NCBI GenBank assembly: GCA_002686265.1
Contig: NZBA01000036.1
Location: 1-64,000 of the forward strand
DNA length: 64,000 nucleotides
Origin: Planctomycetota bacterium
Lineage (GTDB): Bacteria > Planctomycetota > UBA1135 > GCA-002686595
Reading direction: 5' to 3'
Shown here in pieces: positions 47,340 through 51,008 of the stretch. The first letter of the stretch is position 1; each line of letters begins with the position of its first letter. A program made the translations under genes and the position numbers. Below the pieces are notes generated by a model, which saw only the letters and a list, made by a program, of their open reading frames with translations, searched no databases and was not told the DNA's origin.

Positions 47340-47714
47340 ATGCCGACCATCAATCAGCTGATCCGCAAGGGCCGCCAGAAGGCGACCAAGCGCTCGAAGT
47401 CTCCCGTGCTGGATTCCTGCCCCCAGAAGCGGGGCGTGTGCCTGCAGGTCAAGACACAGACGCCCAAGAAGCCGAACTCCGCCCTGCGCAAGATCGCGCG
47501 CGTGCGCTTGTCCAACGGCAAGGAGATCACCGCCTACATCCCGGGCGAGGGCCACAACCTCCAGGAACACTCGGTGGTGCTCGTGCGCGGCGGACGCGTG
47601 CGTGACCTTCCCGGTGTTCGCTACCACATCCTGCGCGGGACGCTCGATACGGGCGGCGTCGAGGACCGCACCCAAAGCCGTTCCAAGTACGGAACCAAGC
47701 GCCCCAAGAAGTAG
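47340..47714 (+). CDS. rpsL: 30S ribosomal protein S12
   Basis: [70 protein letters not shown]. Confidence 0.98.
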
Positions 47715-47729
47715 ACACCTTTCATTCTC

Positions 47730-48203
47730 ATGCCGCGCAACTACAAGTCCACCGCCGTCTTCATCAAGCCGGACCCACGCTACGGGTCGATCTTGGCCTC
47801 GAAGCTGATCAACAAGATCATGCTCGACGGCAAGAAGAGCACGGCGCAGAAGATCTTCTACGACGCCATCGAGATCGCCGCCAAGAAGCTCCCCGAGGTC
47901 GAGGAGACCGAGGAGATTTTCACCAAGGCCATCGAGAACGCCCGCCCAACCGTGGAGGTGCGCTCCAAGCGCGTTGGTGGCGCCAACTACCAGGTCCCCC
48001 GCGAGGTGAAGCGCGGCCGCCAGCAGACGCTGGCGATCCGCTGGGTCGTGGACAATGCCCGCAAGAAGAAGGGCAAGCCCATGGCGCAGCGCCTGGCGGA
48101 GGAACTGATCGATGCCTACAACGGCACCGGGGCGTCGGTCCACTGGAAAGAGAACATCCACAAGATGGCCGAGGCCAACAAGGCCTACGCCCACTACGCC
48201 TAG
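47730..48203 (+). CDS. rpsG: 30S ribosomal protein S7
   Basis: DPRYGSILASKLINKIMLDGKKSTAQKIFYDAI, RVGGANYQVPREV. Confidence 0.97.
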   Translation: MPRNYKSTAVFIKPDPRYGSILASKLINKIMLDGKKSTAQKIFYDAIEIAAKKLPEVEETEEIFTKAIENARPTVEVRSKRVGGANYQVPREVKRGRQQTLAIRWVVDNARKKKGKPMAQRLAEELIDAYNGTGASVHWKENIHKMAEANKAYAHYA

Positions 48204-48406: not shown

Positions 48407-48916
48407 ATGAGCATGCCGCCCGTCCCGCCCGATGTTCTGATCCTGCGCGATCCGCGGGAATCGGTGCGCAAGTGCTCCCTGACGCCTCTACGCGGTAGGC
48501 CGGCGTTCGAGTTCGTGGCGTATCACCGTGAACGGCGCGTCGAGGCCGCCGGGCGCATTCTGCTGCACCCCGACGGGGAACCCCTCTCGCCCGCCGACCG
48601 CTGCCGCGGCCTGCTACTGGTGGACTGCTCCTGGCGCCGGCTGGAGAGCCTGCTGCGCACCGTCGACGGCGACCCTCCCCGCCGCAGTCTCCCAGAACTC
48701 GCCACCGCCTACCCGCGCCGGAGTCGCAGTTTCGAGGATCCTCCTCACGGCCTGGCCTCGATCGAGGCCCTCTACGCAGCCCTGGTCCTGCTCGGCGGAG
48801 CGAGCCGCGATCTGCTGAACGGCTATCGCTGGGCCGAGGAGTTCCTGGCGGCGAATCCCGGGCTGGACGCCTCCCGCCGGCACGCCGCCCCACAGGCGGG
48901 CGGGCTCGGACGCTGA
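48407..48916 (+). CDS. Tsr3-like (SPOUT-class aminocarboxypropyltransferase) protein
   Basis: RKCSLTPLRG; LSPADRCRGLLLVDCSWRRLESL; RRSLPELATAYPRRS; LASIEALYAALVLLGGASRDLLNGYRWAEEFLAANPGLD matches the Tsr3 family block order recalled from yeast Tsr3. Confidence 0.7.
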   Translation: MSMPPVPPDVLILRDPRESVRKCSLTPLRGRPAFEFVAYHRERRVEAAGRILLHPDGEPLSPADRCRGLLLVDCSWRRLESLLRTVDGDPPRRSLPELATAYPRRSRSFEDPPHGLASIEALYAALVLLGGASRDLLNGYRWAEEFLAANPGLDASRRHAAPQAGGLGR

Positions 48917-48950: not shown

Positions 48951-51008
48951 ATGGGCCCTGATCGAGTCCGCAACTTCGGCATCGCCGCTCACATCGACGC
49001 CGGTAAGACCACCGTCTCCGAGCGCATGCTGTACTACAGCGGCGTCGAGCACCGCATCGGCGGCGTCGACGAGGGAACGGCCGTCATGGATTGGATGGCG
49101 GAGGAACGCGAGCGCGGGATCACGATCACCGCCGCGGCTACACGCGTGCCCTGGCGCGATCACGAGCTCAACCTGATCGATACGCCTGGCCACGTCGACT
49201 TCACCGTCGAGGTCGAGCGCTGCATGCGAGTGCTCGACGGCGCGATTCTCGTCCTGGACGCGGTAAGCGGTGTGCAGGCCCAGTCCGAGACCGTCTGGCG
49301 ACAGATGGAGCGACACGGGGTCCCGGCGATCGCCTTCGTCAACAAGTGCGACCGCCCGGGCGCGGACTACCTGGCGGCGGTCGGCACGCTGCGGGAGCGC
49401 TTGGGCGCGCCGGGTATTCCCATCCAGCTGCCCCTGGACCCGGCCGAGGAACCGCGCCTGATCGTGGACTTGCTCACCGGCCGCGCCCTGCGCTACCACG
49501 CCGATCGCGGGAGCCGCGACCCCGAGGTCCTGGACCCACCCGCCGAGGCCGCCGACGAGATCGGAGTCCTGCGCTCGGAGTTGATCGAGACCCTCGCGGA
49601 GGAGGACGAGGCGGTGCTGGCCTGTGTCCTGGAGGACAGCGAGCCGCCGGTCGAGCTACTGGTCGCGGCCCTCAAGAAGCGTGTCCTCGACCGCACCCTC
49701 GTGCCGGTGCTCTGCGGCGCCGCCCTGCGCAACCTCGGCGTGCAGCCTCTGCTCGACGCCGTCGTCGACTACTTGCCCTCGCCGCTGGAGGTCTCGGCGG
49801 TGGAGGGCGTGGAGCCCGAGTCGCTCGCGCCCCTCACGCGCGAAGCGAGGACCGACGAGCCCTTCTCCGCCCTGGCGTTCAAGTTGCACGCCGGGCCCCA
49901 CGGGGATCTGACCTTCCTGCGCATCTACTCGGGCAGCCTGACCCCCGGGCAGGCTCTGCTCAATCCGCGCGTCGGCAAGAAGGAACGCGTGGCGCGCGTT
50001 CTGCGAATGCACTCCGAGGCCAGCGAAGCCCTCGAACGCGCCGAGGCGGGGGACATCGTGGCCGTCACGGGCCTGAAGTGGACCGGCACCGGCGACACCC
50101 TCTGCGTGCGCGAGGCTCCGATCCTGCTCGAGGCCCTCGACTTCCCCGCGCCGGTCATCACGCGCGTGGTGGAACCCGCCAGCGGCGCCGAGCGTGATCG
50201 CTTGCGCCAAGCCCTCGCGCGCCTTGCTCACGAGGACCCCAGCCTGCACGTGCGCGAGGACGAGGACTCGGGCCAGTGGACCATCGCGGGGATGGGGGAG
50301 TTGCACCTCGAAGTCGTCCAGCACCGCCTCGAGGCCGAGTTCGATCTCGCGCCGCGAGTCGGCCAACCGCGAGTTGCCTACCGAGAGACGGTCCTCACCG
50401 GGGCCTCCGGACGCGGCGTCGTCGACCGTCCCCTGGCGGGCAAGGAGATCTTCGTCGCCCTCGAGCTGACCCTCTCTCCAGCGCCCGACGGGCTCGCGCC
50501 GCGGGTCGAATTCCCCGGCGACTGCCTCCTCCCCGTGCCCTTCCGCGCGGCGGTGGAGGAGGCCTTGATGCTCGAGGCTCAGGTCGGGCCGCGCTTCGGA
50601 TACCCCATGGTGCGCGCCGCGATCGAGATCGGCGCCGTGGAGGTGCGCGAGGGCAAGACCAGCGACGTGGCCTTTGTCCAGGCCGGGGTGGTCGCCCTGC
50701 GCCAGGCCATCAGCGCGGCGGAGTGCGCCATCGAAGAGCCGATGATGGCCTTCGAGATCCAGACGCCGAGCGAGTTCTCGAGCGGCATCATCGCCGACCT
50801 GAACGCCCGCGACGCCGAGCTGTCCGAAGTCGTGGCCGAGGCCGACGCCTGCCGCATCGAGGGACGCGTGCCCCTCGCGGCGATGTTCGGCTACTCGACA
50901 GCTGTCCGCTCCCTCTCCCAGGGCCGGGCGGGCTTCAGCATGTCCCCCTCCGCGTATCGGCCCGTGGCGGAACGCGACCTGGCCGCTCGCGGGCTCATCT
51001 GGAGCTGA
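48951..51008 (+). CDS. fusA: Elongation factor G
   Basis: [84 protein letters not shown]. Confidence 0.93.

Follow-up and report, generated by a model that had tools for sequence, protein, structure and literature searches.

To our knowledge, acp hypermodification of rRNA occurs only in archaea and eukaryotes, and there at a single site. In E. coli numbering, the helix 31 residue targeted by Tsr3 is U966; at this position H. volcanii carries acp3U966 and eukaryotes m1acp3-pseudouridine, and bacteria have G or m2G (PMC2584109, PMC6259748). In bacteria, the acp modification known to be made by this superfamily is tRNA acp3U47, and the work on Tsr3 and TapT assigns the aspartate of the shared motif as catalytic base and the tryptophan as SAM-binding residue, with TapT carrying in addition an N-terminal CXXCXXXXXXCXC module (PMC7026641). 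In 2014 Burroughs & Aravind described a bacterial TDD family, pc1599, that occurs mostly in planctomycetes, verrucomicrobia and chlamydiae and is recovered in Tsr3 searches (PMC4275035). They predicted an RNase; that Tsr3 and TapT are acp-transferases was demonstrated only afterwards (PMC7026641). The core motifs described for the TDD superfamily are D-s-[ST]-W, an acidic residue that follows strand 1, and the Glu of the penultimate helix. Our literature search encountered the name pc1599 in no paper other than PMC4275035, which was also the sole source to mention Tsr3 together with planctomycetes. Here we analyze a Tsr3-like gene in a planctomycete, within a 64,000-nucleotide stretch of DNA referred to as the window.

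Family membership and active site

The tsr3-like gene (48407..48916, + strand) starts with ATG and encodes a predicted SAM-dependent acp-transferase of 169 aa in the TDD superfamily, and its translation holds the four sequence blocks quoted by the original prediction in the order claimed. The protein scores 41.3 bits (E 1.6e-10) against the PF04034 profile (Tsr3/DUF367, Ribo_biogen_C), above the gathering cut-off of 29.9, and this profile is matched by 25/25 class members. Against the DTW/TapT profile PF03942 it reaches 11.8 bits, under the cut-off of 33.7, and it also misses the NCBIfam Tsr3/DUF367 equivalog cut-offs (52.8 bits where 152 are required, and 44.3 where 300 are). Archaeal Tsr3 5apg was the sole solved structure matched by sequence in a phmmer search (2.5e-11), and a profile of 25 relatives recovered from the PDB 5apg (6.5e-14) and 5ap8 (3.1e-7), the two archaeal Tsr3 crystal structures, with no further significant match and with TapT missing up to E = 10. 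The AlphaFold model is confident (mean pLDDT 90), and its best Foldseek matches are again 5apg and 5ap8 (2.3e-9 and about 1e-5), as expected for a Tsr3-type SPOUT-like fold, with TapT far behind at 0.026. Chance does not come near to explaining this similarity to Tsr3, and the gene is real and by profile a member of the Tsr3 family, as had been proposed from the sequence blocks. Comparison with the same-genus copy gives dN 0.10 and dS 0.75, and so purifying selection acts on the gene.

The active-site motif is retained as well. The KCSLTPL block opens with K22-C23-S24 (48470..48478, + strand), placed by alignment to archaeal Tsr3, in which S24 aligns to T19, a SAM-contacting residue of V. distributa Tsr3. 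The D/E-x-S/T-W catalytic/SAM motif is D73-C-S-W76 (48623..48634, + strand), and the third conserved TDD motif is G115-L-A-S-I-E-A121 (48749..48769, + strand). E18, D73, W76 and E120 are unchanged across the 25 aligned sequences, and the TDD core motifs are thus all present. The window protein contains no CxxC, and the N-terminal zinc module of TapT is absent. Directly after K22-C23-S24, LTP stands where S. solfataricus Tsr3 has GKK, and since LTPL takes the place of the basic residues found around GKKL in archaea, RNA recognition probably differs from that of archaeal Tsr3.

In a tree of 58 rows the DTW proteins (100/98), two archaeal Tsr3 sequences (98/88) and the bacterial family (100/97) form separate groups, the last on a long branch; as archaea contribute just two rows and pc1599 itself is not represented, the tree speaks to the distinctness of the bacterial branch from DTW and archaeal Tsr3 and not to the direction of descent. 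Recent transfer of an archaeal gene was set aside on the basis of this separate long branch, with nesting possible given the two archaeal rows. A search for plasmid-borne archaeal Tsr3 sequences returned none.

Genomic context and distribution

The gene lies in a str operon, where rpoC and rpsL (S12; 47340..47714, + strand) precede rpsG (S7; 47730..48203, + strand), which ends 203 bp upstream of the tsr3-like gene, and an EF-G gene (48951..51008, + strand) begins 34 bp downstream. No promoter or terminator stands out in the interval from rpsG to EF-G. The position between rpsG and EF-G given in the original prediction is thereby borne out, with the correction that this EF-G, which passes TIGR00484, is divergent in domain IV and lacks the SGG-GQ loop-I motif. 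The same motif is missing in all 24 class relatives checked, and Pfam EFG_IV falls under its cut-off for the window EF-G. Identity of this EF-G to relatives is mostly 41-66%, and S12 of the same relatives shows 80-92%. Planctomycetes have been reported with spdEFG1/spdEFG2 in place of EF-G I (PMC3150367); the PDB matches of the window EF-G do not discriminate among these types.

Both rpsG and EF-G flank the gene in 22 of 28 relatives, and EF-G alone does so in 4 more. Among a further 100 loci, 70 have both neighbors, 11 have one and 19 have neither; the two sets overlap, with some genomes in both, and several of the non-flanked loci end at contig ends. The association is genuine in most families of the class (f1, f2, f4, f5 and f8), whereas in f6 and f7 the gene is outside the str operon in the members checked, as it is in all 20 loci from outside the class (0/20). 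The operon link is therefore old within one lineage and lineage-specific, not universal. Archaeal Tsr3 genes are likewise found near ribosomal operons (PMC4275035).

Within this planctomycete class the tsr3-like gene is a core gene, present in 126 of 128 genomes and in all 53 of the high-quality ones (53/53); the named relatives nearest the window genome are strains Poly30 and Pla86 (Planctomycetota). Across a phylum sample its occurrence is patchy (78/295 genomes), with many members of family f30, scattered others, and most genomes without it. Tsr3-like genes 57-60% identical to the window protein also occur, outside the str operon, in MAGs named Myxococcales (L125:2908-3405) and Deltaproteobacteria (L140:4959-5459), and these copies reflect either lateral transfer or mis-binning. 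In a 9.5-Mb single-contig planctomycete genome (G179; L225:3177-5843) there is an overlap between the Tsr3-like gene and a kdsB-like one, and QueD- and FolE-like genes follow directly downstream (names assigned by eye).

Candidate substrates

We favor, at a probability of roughly one half, a bacterial Tsr3-like acp-transferase that modifies an rRNA uridine other than 966 and probably not U1498. The evidence for such an rRNA enzyme comprises PF04034 membership, sequence matches to Tsr3 structures only, a fold clearly closest to these, the D-C-S-W motif with E120, presence in 126/128 genomes, and the rpsG/EF-G flanks. From homology, motif and fold, the chemistry is predicted to be SAM-dependent acp transfer to N3 of uridine, and the operon position, the lack of the Cys module and coexistence with DTW enzymes suggest that this uridine is probably in rRNA. 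The enzyme would bind SAM with the acp group pointing at the active site and pass that group to N3; D73 would serve as the base and W76 would hold SAM. The substrate would be more likely in the small than in the large subunit. The gene appears to be kept vertically in the class and is probably co-expressed with S12, S7 and EF-G, and its core status and operon position would fit a function in maturing the ribosome. That it represents the first bacterial rRNA acp-transferase, acting on an SSU or LSU uridine outside helix 31 position 966, is a proposal to which we give slightly less than even odds. Several observations weigh on the other side. We know of no bacterial rRNA acp modification, and the papers searched contain none; outside the class and in f6 and f7 the gene lies elsewhere than in the str operon; the GKKL basic residues are replaced; and a DTW enzyme is missing from the window genome. 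An association scan of 24 16S sequences likewise gave no credible 16S uridine: position 98 was the only gene-linked uridine column, which, compared over 16 versus 8 sequences and lacking plausibility, was treated as noise.

A doubtful but serious alternative has the protein act on tRNA, as an acp-transferase that forms acp3U either at position 47 or within the D-loop and replaces DTW/TapT where these are missing. Superfamily and chemistry are common to both, tRNA acp3U47 is the precedent in bacteria, outside the class there is no link between the gene and ribosomal genes, and a search of the window genome for a DTW enzyme found none, leaving room for a tRNA role there. However, strong DTW matches occur in 12/40 genomes with the gene and 8/40 without it, so the two are not alternatives and the gene is no simple stand-in. 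The absence of anti-correlation led us to reject DTW/TapT replacement as such, and because DTW co-occurs in those 12/40 genomes and the zinc-binding Cys module is lacking, the gene product is not simply a tRNA enzyme. Profile and fold, moreover, agree with the rRNA-acting Tsr3 and not with TapT, and in most of the class the gene sits in the str operon.

It is improbable that the activity has diverged to RNA methylation or to a non-catalytic role in assembly. The long branch separating the family from archaeal Tsr3 and the missed equivalog cut-offs would fit such a change, but the catalytic D and the SAM-binding W are invariant in 25 relatives and the predicted Tsr3-like fold is confident. Hardly more plausible, and if anything less so, is action at an established site of N3-uridine methylation that lacks its customary enzyme, namely 23S U1915 (RlmH) or 16S U1498 (RsmE). 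RlmH, the 23S m3-pseudouridine1915 methyltransferase, has no match in the window genome or in 69/80 sampled Planctomycetota. It is absent from 35/40 genomes with the gene, yet it is as rare without it (34/40 lack RlmH), and since the window genome, like most others, encodes RsmE, U1498 is an unlikely target; neither enzyme shows a pattern of replacement, and this candidate was rejected for both.

Least probable is the reading of the original prediction, a functional Tsr3 that modifies helix 31 at 966 just as the archaeal and eukaryotic enzymes do, for which PF04034 membership and the ribosomal gene context speak. At helix 31 the partial 16S of the window genome reads TTCGAAGCAACGCG, that is A965 G966 C967; the genus mate also has G966, as do all 24 of 24 full-length Planctomycetota 16S sequences (16 with the gene, 8 without), and the 962-970 loop of family f1 is entirely free of U. 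Neither U nor m1-pseudouridine, the substrates of Tsr3, is therefore available at SSU 966 in the organism's own 16S or in any relative checked. The window genome also encodes RsmD, the G966 methyltransferase (135 bits, above cut-off). Because G stands in place of U966 and RsmD is present, the helix 31 target is rejected, and 966 could be the site only for an enzyme that accepts G; we know of no report of acp transfer to G.

Implications and relation to known systems

A Tsr3 relative is thus kept class-wide, mostly in the str operon, in organisms whose classical site is G. This combination implies either that bacterial ribosomes carry a hitherto undescribed acp site or that bacteria have a second way of making tRNA acp3U, and the choice between rRNA and tRNA bears on the ancestral function of the superfamily. 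If the target is indeed rRNA, the enzyme family would have switched its rRNA target between domains. The tsr3-like gene is a good lead, a conserved predicted RNA modifier with the obvious target excluded, and not a new kind of system. In sum, the family membership and str operon association originally put forward stand; the helix 31 target does not, nor does the view of Tsr3 as eukaryotic/archaeal, which the bacterial sister family published in 2014 had made outdated (PMC4275035).

Among described proteins, archaeal and eukaryotic Tsr3 (PF04034; 5apg, 5ap8) share profile, fold and catalytic motif with the window protein, which has the length of the archaeal core enzyme, but the bacterial family forms a separate well-supported branch, meets no U966, and has LTPL for the GKKL basic block. 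TapT/DTWD (PF03942), the tRNA acp3U transferases, share the superfamily, the D/E-x-S/T-W motif and the predicted acp chemistry; the window protein differs in its sub-threshold score, the missing N-terminal Cys module and a weak fold match, and DTW coexists with it in many genomes. There is likeness also to pc1599, named after a Protochlamydia protein, which like the window family is bacterial, centered on the PVC group, bears D-s-[ST]-W and is recovered with archaeal Tsr3 searches. Unlike the window family, pc1599 is given no str operon position in the main text of PMC4275035, and the two are likened by description. Those Tsr3 searches recovered a Planctomyces brasiliensis protein (PMC4275035), and the window family extends across Planctomycetota; matched by the description of that family, the window protein most likely belongs to pc1599.
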